Shown: positions 3,851 through 18,393 of the stretch, one piece after another
Numbering within the stretch: the stretch's first letter is position 1
Layout: each line of letters starts with the position of its first letter
Source of the DNA: Candidatus Nitrosocosmicus franklandus
Lineage (GTDB): Archaea > Thermoproteota > Nitrososphaeria > Nitrososphaerales > Nitrososphaeraceae
DNA length: 64,000 nucleotides
Reading direction: 5' to 3'
Assembly: GCF_900696045.1 (NCBI RefSeq)
Contig: NZ_LR216287.1
Location: forward strand, 2,213,854 to 2,277,853
Translations under genes and position numbers: made by a program
Notes under the pieces: model-generated
The model's database searches: none
What the model saw: the letters and a program-made list of their open reading frames with translations, nothing else
What the model was told of the DNA's origin: nothing

Positions 3851-5413
3851 TTGAAAAATTATCTAAATGGTTTAAAAATTCAAATGATGTCTTGTGTATT
3901 GGGTACTATCTTAATCAGTATCGCTCTTACAACTTTTCTCTCGAACCCTTTTTCTAATATTGATCAAGATTCTAATTCCTTTGTAAATATGGCCAGTGCG
4001 ACGACAGGAAAAGACGATGGTGGCGATAGTAACGATGAAAGCGAAGGTGCTAGTGGAGGTGATAATGGAGATAATGAGGATAATGGTGATAGTGGAACGA
4101 ATGTCGATGACGGAGAATCAGTTCCTAGTAATCAACCAGAGGGGGAGGTTTTCTATGAAACTGCCGACCAGTTCGAATCAACCAATCCACAAAATGAACA
4201 AGAAACTAAAAGTGAAGTATGTACCAATGGAGTTGATGATGACGGCGATGAATTGATCGATTCTGGTGACTCTGATTGTAATGAAATACAGGGATTTTGG
4301 TTTGACCATTTTGGAGGACCAAAGCAGGGAATTCCTGCCGAATTCCCTGGTCAATCAATTCCGGGTTCTCAAACAGTAAAACATGAAAGTATATGTGATG
4401 ATGGTATAGATAACGACAGCGACGGGTTAGCGGATAAGAAAGACCCAGATTGTGTGGGTGGCCTTCCAACTGGTGTTGAAGTAGTAGGAGAAGAGGACAC
4501 GGGAGCCATTCAACGACTACCTGGTCCGATTTTAACGGATAAAGTTGTAAAACCGCAGGCTGATGACAGCGGTACAACTACGCCAACAACAACTGATGGA
4601 GGCATTGCAGTTCAACGTTTACCTGGTGCTGATAAACTTAGCAAACTACCATCCTCCTCCGCCTCGACTGGTGACAGTAGTGGTACAACTACACCAACTA
4701 CACCTTCCTCTCCTCCATCACCTGATAGCACACCAACTACACCAACTACACCTTCCTCTCCTCCATCACCTGATAGCACACCAACTACACCAACTACACC
4801 TTCCTCTCCTCCATCACCTGATAGCACACCAACTACACCAACTACACCAACAGAAAATAGCGCAAACACACCCCCACTACCAGGATCAACGATTACTACA
4901 AGCCAATCCCCAGCTCGAATACCTCCTCCACAAGTCATCATTAACAGTGGAACATTCACACTTCCGGATCGTAGTGGATCTTCCGTTTCCACATCCTCAC
5001 CTTCATTGTCAAACTGTTCTTCAAGAGCATCTACACTTCCATTGGCTACATCTTTATTACAAGACAGAGGAGCGCGACTTATAGTGGCACTTGGTCCATG
5101 CACTGTTACCGATGGATCCGTACTTTTGAATCTACCTGAAACAGACGGACTAGAATTAATAGTGGCAAACATGCAAGGAAATCAAGTCCTACAATCGGCT
5201 GTGGTCCCGCTGCAAAAAGTGGCATCATTGGCCCCCGGACAAACGCTTTATAACGTTGACCTTAACGAAGTAATGACAGGTAAGGAACCCGTATTAGGAA
5301 ATGAAGTAACATTGAATGGCAATATCAATGCATTATTACTATGGAATAATGCTGGACAAGAAATCATATTTAATCCTCAGAATTCCGTATCTTTCAGTAC
5401 GGCTCTCCGATAA
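3851..5413 (+). CDS. secreted Thr/Pro-rich protein with calcium-loop motifs
   Basis: A 520-residue exported protein starting at TTG. Residues 8-30 form a hydrophobic signal or anchor, followed by an acidic Gly/Asp/Asn stretch (about 50-95). Two motifs of the C-x-DG-x-D-x-D-x-D type occur at about residues 123-143 (CTNGVDDDGDELID ... DC) and 182-201 (CDDGIDNDSDGLAD ... DC). These resemble the paired-Cys, Asp-rich calcium-binding loops found in many surface proteins. A Thr/Pro/Ser linker follows with three tandem 16-residue units (PTTPTTPSSPPSPDST), and then a folded C-terminal domain from about 390 to 520. It is probably a cell-surface or S-layer-associated protein with a glycosylated stalk. 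The function of the C-terminal domain is not recognised. A short upstream poly-purine AGGAGAAG supports translation from 3851. Confidence 0.8.
   Translation: MKNYLNGLKIQMMSCVLGTILISIALTTFLSNPFSNIDQDSNSFVNMASATTGKDDGGDSNDESEGASGGDNGDNEDNGDSGTNVDDGESVPSNQPEGEVFYETADQFESTNPQNEQETKSEVCTNGVDDDGDELIDSGDSDCNEIQGFWFDHFGGPKQGIPAEFPGQSIPGSQTVKHESICDDGIDNDSDGLADKKDPDCVGGLPTGVEVVGEEDTGAIQRLPGPILTDKVVKPQADDSGTTTPTTTDGGIAVQRLPGADKLSKLPSSSASTGDSSGTTTPTTPSSPPSPDSTPTTPTTPSSPPSPDSTPTTPTTPSSPPSPDSTPTTPTTPTENSANTPPLPGSTITTSQSPARIPPPQVIINSGTFTLPDRSGSSVSTSSPSLSNCSSRASTLPLATSLLQDRGARLIVALGPCTVTDGSVLLNLPETDGLELIVANMQGNQVLQSAVVPLQKVASLAPGQTLYNVDLNEVMTGKEPVLGNEVTLNGNINALLLWNNAGQEIIFNPQNSVSFSTALR
4685..4844 (+). repeat. 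48-bp in-frame tandem repeat, about 3.3 copies
   Basis: A 48-base unit repeats from about 4685 (first copy with one imperfect edge), 4733 and 4781, with a partial copy after 4829. The copies are nearly identical at the nucleotide level, so they arose by recent slippage or unequal exchange. The length is a multiple of three, so copy-number change would lengthen or shorten the Thr/Pro stalk without breaking the frame. Confidence 0.9.
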
Positions 5414-14188: not shown

Positions 14189-14857
14189 CTACCATGTATT
14201 TACATGTATTATTTTATCTACTGGATCTCTTGGTGCAGGCTTAAACGAACTTCCCTTATAATATGCTACGGGAAGCAAAGCCACCTGCATAACTTTTTCA
14301 TATGGGATTTTCAATAATTCGGAGGCGTCTTTTTCAAACCTAAGATGGAAGCTGGTCCAAGTAGTTCCTAATCCATGCAATCTGGCAGCTAACATGAAAT
14401 TCCAAACTGCAGGAGCTATGGATCCCCATATAGCACTTTGGACTACTACGGATACGTTTGATCCATCGGTTCTGCCTTCAACACAAGGAATAACAAATAC
14501 AGGAACATTTTTTAGATTGTCTACCAAATATTTTGCTGATTCGTATATTCTTCTTTGTGTTTTACTTTTCTTTGGGTCATCAGAATTCATAGTCTTGGCA
14601 ACAGAAGTTGGTGAATCTATATATGATTGCCATCCTTTTTGAAAAAGATCTGACAATGAATTCTTCAAGTATTGATCAGTAATAATCAAAAAGTGCCAAT
14701 TCTGTCTATTTGAAGCAGAAGGGGCCTGTTGGGCTATTTCTATACATTTTTTAACCAATTCTATTTCCACGGGTTTTTCAAGATCAAGTCTCTTTCTTAC
14801 TGCTCTTGTAGTTGTAAGTAATTCTTTAGGAGTTAAAGAAGTCATAATTATGACCAT
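14189..14857 (-). CDS. nitroreductase-family flavoprotein
   Basis: A 222-residue FMN-dependent oxidoreductase. Family marks are TRAVRKRLD at the N-terminus (the usual R-S/A-x-R-x-F/L FMN phosphate motif), APSASNRQNWHFLII, and the central GLGTTWTS loop. NAD(P)H-dependent reduction of nitro compounds, quinones or enones is typical; the physiological substrate is unknown. The encoded start could be the ATG at 14857 or the second ATG four codons in (14845), which gives MTSLTPKELL. It is not in an operon. Confidence 0.9.
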   Translation of the reverse strand: MVIIMTSLTPKELLTTTRAVRKRLDLEKPVEIELVKKCIEIAQQAPSASNRQNWHFLIITDQYLKNSLSDLFQKGWQSYIDSPTSVAKTMNSDDPKKSKTQRRIYESAKYLVDNLKNVPVFVIPCVEGRTDGSNVSVVVQSAIWGSIAPAVWNFMLAARLHGLGTTWTSFHLRFEKDASELLKIPYEKVMQVALLPVAYYKGSSFKPAPRDPVDKIIHVNTW

Positions 14858-16407: not shown

Positions 16408-16992
16408 TCACTTTTGAATTGATACATCAATTGGGGTTGGATGTGCTATTATATCAAATACTGGTGATCTTTTTTGCGCCAGATCTACTAGTTCTTTTAT
16501 TTTCTCTTCCGATGCGTCTGCTTTTACCTTGAACGTAACTTTTATTTTCTCGTATCCGTTTCTTACCTTCTCAGACATACCAAGAAGTCCTTGGATATCG
16601 AGGTCTCCTGATAATGTTGATTCTACCTCCTCAATCTTTATGCCTTGGGCAGCAGCATGGTAGATTAATGTCGTAGTGAGACAACCGTTTAATGCAGCTA
16701 GTGCGTATTCTACTGGGTTGGCACCCTGGTCTTTACCCAGTAATACAGGCGGTTCGTCTTTGTCAAATACAAAAGGCTTATCTCGAGCATGGGTTTGACA
16801 TGCACCATCAAAATCGTTTATTACGGTTTGATTATGTCCTCCATTAATCCACTTGCCTTTTGCACGGAAATTGAACTTTGAGATGTTGGGATTATCCTTG
16901 ATGACATTTATTGTACCAAAAAGGTTTGTAACGTTTACCCCATTTACTATTTTTTCATTTTCTATTTTCCTTGATTGACTTGTTTGATTCAT
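16408..16992 (-). CDS. OsmC/Ohr-family protein
   Basis: About 194 residues from the ATG at 16992. OsmC-family proteins are thiol-based peroxidases or organic hydroperoxide reductases. The paired Cys expected for the family are in GACQTHAR and NGCLTTTLIYHAA, and the C-terminal half (VESTLSGDLDIQG ... FKVKADASEEKIKELVDLAQKRSPV) is the typical OsmC dimer domain. The longer frame from 17031 would run through the 22-bp operator and TATA box, so 16992 is preferred: TATA is centred 27 bases upstream, a leaderless promoter. It is divergent from the RHH regulator gene and shares its operators, so regulation by that protein is likely. Confidence 0.92.
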   Translation of the reverse strand: MNQTSQSRKIENEKIVNGVNVTNLFGTINVIKDNPNISKFNFRAKGKWINGGHNQTVINDFDGACQTHARDKPFVFDKDEPPVLLGKDQGANPVEYALAALNGCLTTTLIYHAAAQGIKIEEVESTLSGDLDIQGLLGMSEKVRNGYEKIKVTFKVKADASEEKIKELVDLAQKRSPVFDIIAHPTPIDVSIQK

Positions 16993-16995
16993 ACC

Positions 16996-17017
16996 TAATG
17001 CTAGCATGCTAGCATTA
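16996..17017. promoter_or_regulatory. operator O1, 22-bp perfect palindrome
   Basis: A perfect palindrome whose core half-site is TGCTAGCA (core 16999-17014, centre 17006.5). It lies between the osmC TATA box and ATG, centred 14.5 bases before the start, so bound protein should block RNA polymerase. Confidence 0.85.
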
Positions 17018-17023
17018 TATAAA
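17015..17023 (-). promoter_or_regulatory. TATA box of osmC
   Basis: TTTATATAA on the minus strand, centred 27 bases before the ATG at 16992, as expected for a leaderless archaeal transcript. Confidence 0.7.
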
Positions 17024-17032
17024 TTTATCATT

Positions 17033-17052
17033 AATGCTATCTTGCTAGCAGT
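17033..17052. promoter_or_regulatory. operator O2, imperfect palindrome
   Basis: Core TGCTATCTTGCTAGCA at 17035-17050 (centre 17042.5), 36 bases from O1. It lies immediately upstream of the TATA box of the RHH gene, over the expected BRE, and also upstream of the osmC TATA, so it could serve both promoters. Confidence 0.8.
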
Positions 17053-17054
17053 AT

Positions 17055-17063
17055 CTATAAATA
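17055..17063 (+). promoter_or_regulatory. TATA box of the RHH regulator gene
   Basis: CTATAAATA centred 26 bases before the GTG at 17085, consistent with leaderless transcription from that start. Confidence 0.65.
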
Positions 17064-17084
17064 TTCTGTAACCTTATTCCTATT

Positions 17085-17816
17085 GTGACTCACACCCTTG
17101 TAATAAGAGGTTTTAGCGATAAGGTTCATGAAAAATTAGGTAATTTGGCTACCCAGAAAGGTGTATCTATAAACTCCATAGTAAGAGATGCTGTAGACAA
17201 GTGGTTAGAACAGCATCAATCAGAGACCATTAGAAAACACCATCTGATAATTTATTCAGATGACGAATCTTTGATAAAACTGTTAAAATCGATGGATAAG
17301 TTCGCTAAGGATAGTAACCTGTACAGATGTTTTTGTGGACCTTCGGATATCCAAGCGGCTAAATTGCTTGATAGATTAGGGTGGCGTAACTGTACGTTAG
17401 ACCCTTACTTTTATCTCAATAATCACCATAACCATCCCCACCATCAACACATCAAACAAAGAAACGGTATCTCTCAAACTCAAAATGAGAAAGATATTTA
17501 TGATTACTGTAGCAAGGTAATGGAAAATATTGCGAATAAAGCTGATAATGAACCAGTATGTTGTATGGATTTTCTTATAAATGATATTGGAAAGAATTCC
17601 TTGACAGAGGCATTGGCAATTGAAAAAGCATATGACAATGATAGGATAGGTGGATTCATGTATTGCACATACAAGACGGACGTATTGCTCGAGTCTGGTA
17701 CACAAGACCTCATAGATTTATTTGAAACACATGACCAGGTTTTTATTCTGAAAAAAGATGAAGTGTATAAATTGCATGTTACCAGGGAAAATGTACATAA
17801 ACTATTTTTAAACTAG
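17085..17816 (+). CDS. ribbon-helix-helix regulator with MEDS-like sensory domain
   Basis: A 243-residue protein from a GTG start. Residues 1-45 form an Arc/CopG-type ribbon-helix-helix: the strand HTLVIRGFSD, then helices KVHEKLGNLATQKG and SINSIVRDAVDKWLEQH. The remainder resembles the MEDS sensory domain (first described in the DcmR regulator): HHLIIYSDDESLIKLL at about 52, and near the end FMYCTYKTDVL ... DLIDLFETHDQVFIL, matching the family's Cys-x-Tyr and final L-x2-H strands. Odd features are RCFCGP, an HHNHPHHQH cluster at about 114-122 and a CC pair, which could bind metal or sense redox state. The assignment to MEDS is by eye. Being divergent from osmC and flanked by matching palindromes, it is probably the autoregulated DNA-binding protein of this locus. 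Confidence 0.8.
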   Translation: MTHTLVIRGFSDKVHEKLGNLATQKGVSINSIVRDAVDKWLEQHQSETIRKHHLIIYSDDESLIKLLKSMDKFAKDSNLYRCFCGPSDIQAAKLLDRLGWRNCTLDPYFYLNNHHNHPHHQHIKQRNGISQTQNEKDIYDYCSKVMENIANKADNEPVCCMDFLINDIGKNSLTEALAIEKAYDNDRIGGFMYCTYKTDVLLESGTQDLIDLFETHDQVFILKKDEVYKLHVTRENVHKLFLN

Positions 17817-17871
17817 TGGGATTGTCATAGTTTTTTAGATGTAGTCTGTATTCTTATTAATTATAATTATG

Positions 17872-17889
17872 ATGCTATCATGCTAGCAT
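17872..17889. promoter_or_regulatory. operator O3
   Basis: Core TGCTATCATGCTAGCA at 17873-17888 (centre 17880.5), palindromic with one mismatched pair. It is upstream of the TATA box of the next gene and 37 bases from O4. Confidence 0.8.
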
Positions 17890-17900
17890 AAAAACATATG

Positions 17901-17909
17901 TTTATATAT
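17901..17909 (+). promoter_or_regulatory. TATA box of the 17932 gene
   Basis: TTTATATAT centred 27 bases before the ATG at 17932, the same distance as in the osmC promoter. Confidence 0.7.
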
Positions 17910-17926
17910 CGCTAGCATGATAGCAG
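17910..17926. promoter_or_regulatory. operator O4
   Basis: Core CGCTAGCATGATAGCA at 17910-17925 (centre 17917.5), near-palindromic. It is centred 14.5 bases before the ATG at 17932, exactly as O1 is to osmC. Confidence 0.8.
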
Positions 17927-17931
17927 TATAT

Positions 17932-18393
17932 ATGAACAATCAATACTTAAAAACCTCTGTTATGGAGAACAATAAACAAACTAATTTCCAAAATGCTGAT
18001 AAGATGGCTGATGACCCTTGTGGTTTATCTGAAACTGCAAGGGTTTTTCTTTCAGAAAGCAATATACCCAGGCGATCGGTTATCATAACTCTAGAGAACA
18101 AATTCGAGTATAATCAAATAGTGGAACTATTGGACTCGATAATGTATCAAAAAAAATTGATGGATAGTTATGGATTGGACGGGATAAACAATAAATGGGA
18201 TCTTGATAAGTTTCCTGTTACTAAAACTGATACTCAAATGAATGGGATACAACGTGATATACAAACATACAATGAAACAGTGAAACAATACAATGAATAT
18301 TGTATACACCTTGGGTTAGAATATGGTATAGACATTGCTAGTGAAATGAAAAAAGGTTGTAAGATATTATTTCGACCCCCGGTCACATCGTAG
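17932..18393 (+). CDS. regulon member of unknown function
   Basis: A 153-residue soluble protein from ATG 17932. An in-frame ATG at 17917 lies inside operator O4 and is rejected as start. No known domain is recognised. The middle (SVIITLENKFEYNQIVELLDSIMYQKKLMDSYG) and end (IQTYNETVKQYNEYCIHLGLEYG) are predicted helical, with Cys at about 30, in NEYC and in KKGCKILF. Its promoter carries O3 and O4 in the same arrangement as osmC, so co-regulation by the RHH protein is strongly suggested. Functional ideas beyond that would be guesswork. Confidence 0.75.
   Translation: MNNQYLKTSVMENNKQTNFQNADKMADDPCGLSETARVFLSESNIPRRSVIITLENKFEYNQIVELLDSIMYQKKLMDSYGLDGINNKWDLDKFPVTKTDTQMNGIQRDIQTYNETVKQYNEYCIHLGLEYGIDIASEMKKGCKILFRPPVTS

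Follow-up and report, generated by a model that had tools for sequence, protein, structure and literature searches.

The window analysed here is a stretch of 64,000 nucleotides covering positions 2213854-2277853 of a single-contig genome of 2,836,447 bases (G000). It contains an OsmC-family gene on the minus strand (16408-16992; 194 aa from the ATG at 16992), the gene of a 243-aa regulator with a GTG start on the plus strand (17085-17816), and a gene of unknown function on the plus strand, gene X (17932-18393; 153 aa). A nitroreductase-family gene is located about 1.5 kb beyond osmC (14189-14857). Four putative operators, to which no strand is assigned, accompany the three genes. The core of O1, TGCTAGCATGCTAGCA (16999-17014), lies between the osmC TATA box and the osmC ATG and starts 22 nt from the ATG, and the core of O2, TGCTATCTTGCTAGCA (17035-17050), is found 36 bp from O1 and abuts the upstream side of the TATA box of the regulator gene. 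O3, TGCTATCATGCTAGCA (17873-17888), is the distal operator of gene X, 37 bp away from the proximal O4, CGCTAGCATGATAGCA (17910-17925), which again lies between TATA box and ATG and starts 22 nt from the ATG. The TATA boxes of osmC (TTTATATAA, 17015-17023, minus strand, its position kept in orthologs) and gene X (TTTATATAT, 17901-17909, plus strand) abut O1 and O4, respectively, on the upstream side, and the one of the regulator gene (TATCTATAAATA, 17052-17063, plus strand) abuts O2. The centres of O1 (17006.5) and O4 (17917.5) are both exactly 14.5 nt away from the respective ATG codons at 16992 and 17932.

The first-pass annotation of this DNA had described four copies of one palindrome, restricted to these places within the window, with matched spacing at osmC and gene X and with the regulator gene's own operator adjoining its TATA box. 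All of this holds except for the unit itself: each 16-bp core is not a single palindrome but consists of two abutting 8-bp palindromes (TGNTAN'CA-TGNTAN'CA, e.g. TGCTAGCA-TGCTAGCA). Searching both strands with TGCTANCNTGNTAGCA and allowing at most one mismatch resulted in 8 strand-hits in the window, all of them at O1-O4, while 0.08 were expected and 8 were reached in none of 100 shuffles. In the whole genome of 2.84 Mb no full match to TGCTANCNTGNTAGCA was found elsewhere, and with one mismatch only two further matches appeared, each on one strand and unconvincing; the reversed control pattern gave 0 matches. The sites are confined to this locus; a scatter over the genome without relation to promoters, which the annotation had named as a refutation, was not seen. 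A more degenerate genome-wide pattern, TGNTANCNNGNTANCA, picks up extra sites in G000, among them a repeat at 69.7-70.3 kb, but three inspected sites do not have the promoter geometry and therefore we do not claim further regulon members in G000. In the repeat (G000:C1:69667-70264) TGGTAGCGAGATAACA is present in four identical copies within 600 bp, which suggests a repeat-bearing gene or array.

The regulator consists of a ribbon-helix-helix (RHH) domain (residues 1-45), which weakly resembles FitA, ParG, and CopG, and an alpha/beta domain (residues 50-243). The AlphaFold2 model, built from a 36-sequence alignment, has a mean pLDDT of 84 and contains helices at residues 12-25 and 29-45. The Pfam models FitA-like_RHH, ParG, and RHH_1 match weakly in up to 24 of 38 family members, with all matches of the window protein below the curated cut-offs, and the structural relatives of this part are ParG and CopG structures. 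With an N-terminal strand followed by two helices and an RHH-family sequence match, the protein belongs to the RHH (MetJ/Arc/CopG) superfamily. Dimers of this superfamily insert a beta ribbon into the major groove at palindromic DNA; for the present protein only indirect signs point to this mode, namely the palindromic 8-bp boxes and a co-variation between RHH residues 4 and 6 and box base 3, which a whole-protein scan does not single out. Membership in the MetJ family is not supported, as no MetJ model is among the Pfam matches listed. Provided that it binds the operators as inferred, the regulator works like MetJ without being a member of the MetJ family.

The model of the C-terminal domain retrieved RecA/KaiC/CobU-like folds in a Foldseek search (low sequence identity, best E 4e-5). 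The Pfam MEDS family (PF14417) is not among the families listed for the 38 homologs at E<=0.1, and two other proteins of the same genome score above the Pfam MEDS cut-off. A profile of 19 thaumarchaeal MEDS domains, compared by hhalign, matches residues 51-210 with a probability of 92 and an E-value of 6.7e-7 (one comparison). The invariant or near-invariant MEDS residues His1, Glu124, and Cys139 align with His52, Glu180, and Cys194, which together with Tyr57 and His216 are invariant in the domain studied here. At the profile level, homology, common invariants, and a RecA/KaiC-like fold thus agree, and sequence profiles and the predicted fold support that the domain is a remote relative of MEDS. 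The fold is also consistent with a published census in which MEDS is treated as an inactivated KaiC-like domain (PMC5847659). The sensor had initially been called MEDS-like; this label is fair because profile match, invariants, and fold agree, whereas membership in MEDS proper is not established by the standard Pfam test, whose model no family member reaches. The sensor domain of the Nitrososphaeraceae members also contains a His-rich or Gln-rich loop of low confidence (residues 112-133; 17418-17483 in the window), which is absent from Nitrosopumilus-type members and might be a metal site or a mere linker.

The product of osmC belongs to the OsmC fold family (Pfam OsmC E=1.3e-20); its best NCBIfam model, OsmC_like_Se, stays below the cut-off. 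The OsmC/Ohr thiol peroxidases usually carry their second cysteine in a C-terminal CP motif. Cys104 is invariant (17/17) and Cys65 is present in 13/17 sequences, but at the C-terminal position all 17 have SPV in place of CP, so that the usual cysteine is a serine and two catalytic cysteines are not found at the usual places. The gene had been annotated as an OsmC peroxidase, of which the family part stands. Given that the first cysteine is kept but the usual C-terminal resolving cysteine is missing, the peroxidase part remains an assumption, and the sequence does not settle the reaction. Gene X matches nothing in Pfam and NCBIfam, and only four clear relatives (E<=1e-12) were found in 300 genomes. 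A fold search did not result in a significant match, being based on a single-sequence prediction of which one of five models was confident. The promoter and operator geometry of gene X is identical in the window, in G056, and in G188, where gene X itself is the divergent partner of the RHH gene. In one G056 locus (L075, G056:C4) the RHH frame is shifted near residue 36 and an in-frame TAG breaks gene X, with osmC apparently undamaged, which could be decay or a sequencing error.

Of the 300 genomes of the order, 52 encode homologs of the RHH protein. When about 85,000 prokaryote species were scanned with one conserved motif, relatives turned up in Nitrososphaeria only, including Nitrososphaera, Nitrosocosmicus, Nitrosopolaris, Nitrosopumilus, and Nitrosarchaeum. 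Upstream of the RHH genes, the best pair of tandem-palindrome operators is 36-39 bp apart in 57 of 68 distinct regions, the usual positions being about -85 and -48 relative to the start of the RHH gene. In 51 of the 68 regions the score exceeds that of all 60 first-order Markov resamplings of the same region. The own-promoter operators are kept in orthologs, as expected for autoregulation. The operator pair thus stands out as a phylogenetic footprint, which was out of reach for a reading of the window alone. At 35 of 44 loci 20-22 nt separate the divergent ATG from the start of the proximal operator, and this applies to several unrelated gene families (OsmC, methyltransferase, MGMT, hydrolase, X). 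At those loci a TATA-like stretch abuts the proximal operator and the TATA box of the RHH gene abuts the other one. Some members do not fit: no pair was found at L076, L095, L101, and L119, and L113 and L117 have a single operator, which counts against a general switch.

The divergent neighbour varies by subfamily while the operators stay. Across the Nitrososphaeraceae and Nitrosopumilus-like families the paired operators track the RHH gene and not any one partner gene, and OsmC, which adjoins the RHH gene in 15 loci, is just one of several partners. Other partners are a SAM methyltransferase with an Rv2258c-like winged helix, an ArsR-like regulator, an O6-methylguanine-DNA methyltransferase (MGMT), in some cases with an adjoining Oxygenase-NA (PF09859) gene, and an alpha/beta hydrolase, which among curated models matches haloalkane dehalogenases best, though below cut-off. 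At L077-L079 MGMT and the Oxygenase-NA gene (2OG-Fe oxygenase, DNA damage) stand together under the same RHH regulator family. RHH homologs with AGATATCT boxes are found at L103, L104, L124, and L125, and at the latter two the homolog lies beside the haloalkane dehalogenase-like hydrolase. This is reminiscent of DcmR, which controls dichloromethane dehalogenase.

The osmC orthologs carry the operators at -22 and about -60. None were found at 13 distant OsmC paralogs or at the osmC orthologs of G161 and G069, two genomes (85% and 99% complete, respectively) without an RHH relative even at the profile level. Conversely, operators are present at some genes that no RHH gene adjoins: at osmC in G022:C6 and G152:C42, and, as a 16-bp operator upstream, at two lone MGMT/ogt genes of the same genus (L258, G056:C10; L064, G074:C2). 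This points to control in trans. At one further locus (L115, G149:C239, about 3995-4005) osmC and X stand head to head, and the RHH gene, both intergenic regions, and both start codons are missing. This could be taken as a natural deletion, but the junction lies exactly between the coding parts without the start regions and might be an assembly fault, so that it was not counted as evidence. Since the operators follow the RHH gene, the geometry recurs, and the osmC genes of RHH-less genomes do not have operators, the originally proposed control of osmC and gene X by an autoregulated RHH protein is strongly supported by the comparison of loci, with DNA binding and repression still being inferred.

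The direction of this control could be different. The RHH protein might act as activator, or in a dual manner by activating its own promoter from O2 and repressing osmC and X from O1 and O4. Archaeal activators bind just upstream of TATA/BRE, and exactly this position is taken by O2 and the distal operators, which speaks against a repressor-only function, and the operator pair is conserved as a pair. However, the operator nearest to the target gene is nearly always placed between TATA box and ATG, where a bound protein would block initiation. We therefore regard activation as unlikely, but it is the alternative that keeps some weight.

The boxes themselves differ between subfamilies at base 3, which is C in TGCTAGCA, A in TGATATCA, and G in TGGTACCA, and further subfamilies carry AGATATCT or TGCAAGCA boxes. 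Within the RHH strand, residues 4 (z 5.9) and 6 (z 7.4) share mutual information with base 3 if relatedness is ignored, and residues 3, 5, and 7 do not, a pattern that is expected if alternating residues face the DNA. Tree-independent pairs agree in direction (3.2 same and 0.1 opposite of 5), yet their number is too small, and the residue classes were defined with the data already in view. On the tree, T4/V6 came to be combined with TGCTAGCA at least two times, in the window protein and in L091/L110; L085 is an exception. In a whole-protein scan controlled for relatedness, residue 4 comes only 25th and residue 6 only 14th among 211, and neither is singled out. Because of this the apparent covariation of recognition residues is only suggestive, a support but not a proof. 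The window genome also encodes a second RHH-MEDS-like paralog (G000:C1:1869879-1870532; L113:3998-4654), divergent from a SAM methyltransferase. This paralog at 1870 kb has TGATATCA-type boxes and the strand residues N4/V6, and the two regulons of this genome may therefore be insulated from each other.

It could also be imagined that a different transcription factor binds the palindromes and that the RHH gene is merely one of its targets, given that there are no data for binding by the RHH protein itself and that the whole-protein covariation does not single out DNA-facing residues. This is improbable: the RHH gene is the common denominator of dozens of loci at which the partner genes vary, the RHH-less genomes do not have operators at osmC, abutting 8-bp palindromes fit RHH dimers, and residues 4 and 6 change along with base 3. 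A toxin-antitoxin-like module with the RHH protein as antitoxin and X as toxin, for which the resemblance of the RHH part to the FitA/ParG/CopG antitoxin or partition families and the small size and unknown function of X could be cited, is hardly credible and was rejected because X is rarely present, being absent beside most homologs. Further points against it are the 190-aa sensor-like domain of the RHH protein, the separate promoter and operators of X, and the fact that most partners are enzymes.

Very probably, the locus is an autoregulatory switch with three promoters under a one-component repressor. This repressor belongs to a lineage-wide family of Nitrososphaeria that would sense a small reactive compound and derepress detoxification or repair genes. 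The sites, their geometry and conservation, and the domain content can be read from the sequence, while binding, repression, direction of control, and ligand are inferred. As in MetJ, one RHH dimer would bind per 8-bp palindrome. At osmC and X the bound repressor would block the start site, as the proximal operator lies between TATA box and the (probably leaderless) ATG, and with the second operator upstream of TATA/BRE the pair would bracket the TATA box. At the RHH promoter the operator abutting its own TATA box would provide negative autoregulation. Binding of a small, probably electrophilic or organic compound to the MEDS-like domain would loosen DNA binding, and release of the DNA would induce osmC, X, and the regulator. 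Other detoxification or repair genes (MGMT and Oxygenase-NA, methyltransferase, alpha/beta hydrolase) are supposed to be run in the same way by paralogs whose boxes are altered. From the partner genes we guess that reactive organic or alkylating compounds, or peroxides, are the signal.

Ammonia-oxidizing archaea are among the most abundant archaea on Earth, and to our knowledge their specific gene regulation is largely unexplored. In the open-licence literature, to which the search was limited, we did not find a description of RHH-MEDS regulators, of OsmC with RHH in Thaumarchaeota, or of such operators in ammonia-oxidizing archaea, which is in line with the initial statement that an OsmC protein under a MEDS-like RHH sensor has not been described. 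RHH repressors, tandem 8-bp boxes, and MEDS sensing are known elements; what appears to be new is that they are combined, that this combination is widely conserved in Nitrososphaeria, and that paired operators bracket archaeal TATA boxes. With some reservation we favour the view that RHH-MEDS one-component repressors form an expanding family in Nitrososphaeria that has not been described before, and that its paralogs diverged in their boxes (TGCTAGCA, TGATATCA, TGGTACCA, AGATATCT, TGCAAGCA), resulting in regulons that are insulated from one another and directed against reactive small molecules (OsmC, O6-alkylguanine transferase and Oxygenase-NA, methyltransferase, dehalogenase-like hydrolase). 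The operator pair around the TATA box may represent a distinct repression architecture for TBP/TFB promoters. Throughout the ammonia-oxidizing archaea the same arrangement is met again beside various genes related to damage or stress. The family can be put to the test: for dozens of genomes there are predictions of its binding sites, promoters, and target genes and of the specificity of its paralogs. A named sensor would thereby be tied to the defence against stress and alkylation, and the family would offer a compact archaeal model for the evolution of RHH specificity and for the silencing of TBP/TFB promoters by repressors.

Among the known systems, the methionine repressor MetJ of gammaproteobacteria and its met boxes share the RHH protein and operators of adjacent 8-bp sequences; each MetJ dimer covers 8 bp, and at least two such boxes must lie side by side (PMC3228920). 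In contrast to MetJ, the regulator described here does not have a MetJ sequence match, is fused to a MEDS-like sensor, and would act at archaeal TATA promoters with two operators 36-39 bp apart. With DcmR and other MEDS regulators it shares a C-terminal domain remotely related to MEDS including the invariant His, Glu, and Cys. For MEDS, a role in sensing simple hydrocarbon derivatives has been predicted (Anantharaman and Aravind 2005, as cited in PMC11507031 and PMC5847659). The MEDS examples in those two papers occur in fusion with helix-turn-helix, kinase, or receiver domains and not with RHH, and the Pfam MEDS model is not reached by the domain studied here.

Repressors of the NikR type combine RHH with a C-terminal ACT sensor domain. 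They resemble the present protein as one-component RHH repressors with a ligand-sensing C-terminal domain, ligand binding being inferred here, but the sensor is RecA/KaiC-like and not ACT, the operator architecture is different, and there are no nickel genes nearby. OhrR is a MarR winged-helix protein. The peroxide regulation by OhrR and Ohr/OsmC is similar in having an autoregulated repressor, with repression inferred in our case, beside a gene of the OsmC/Ohr family; it differs in that the regulator here is an RHH and MEDS-like protein and the OsmC lacks the usual second cysteine.
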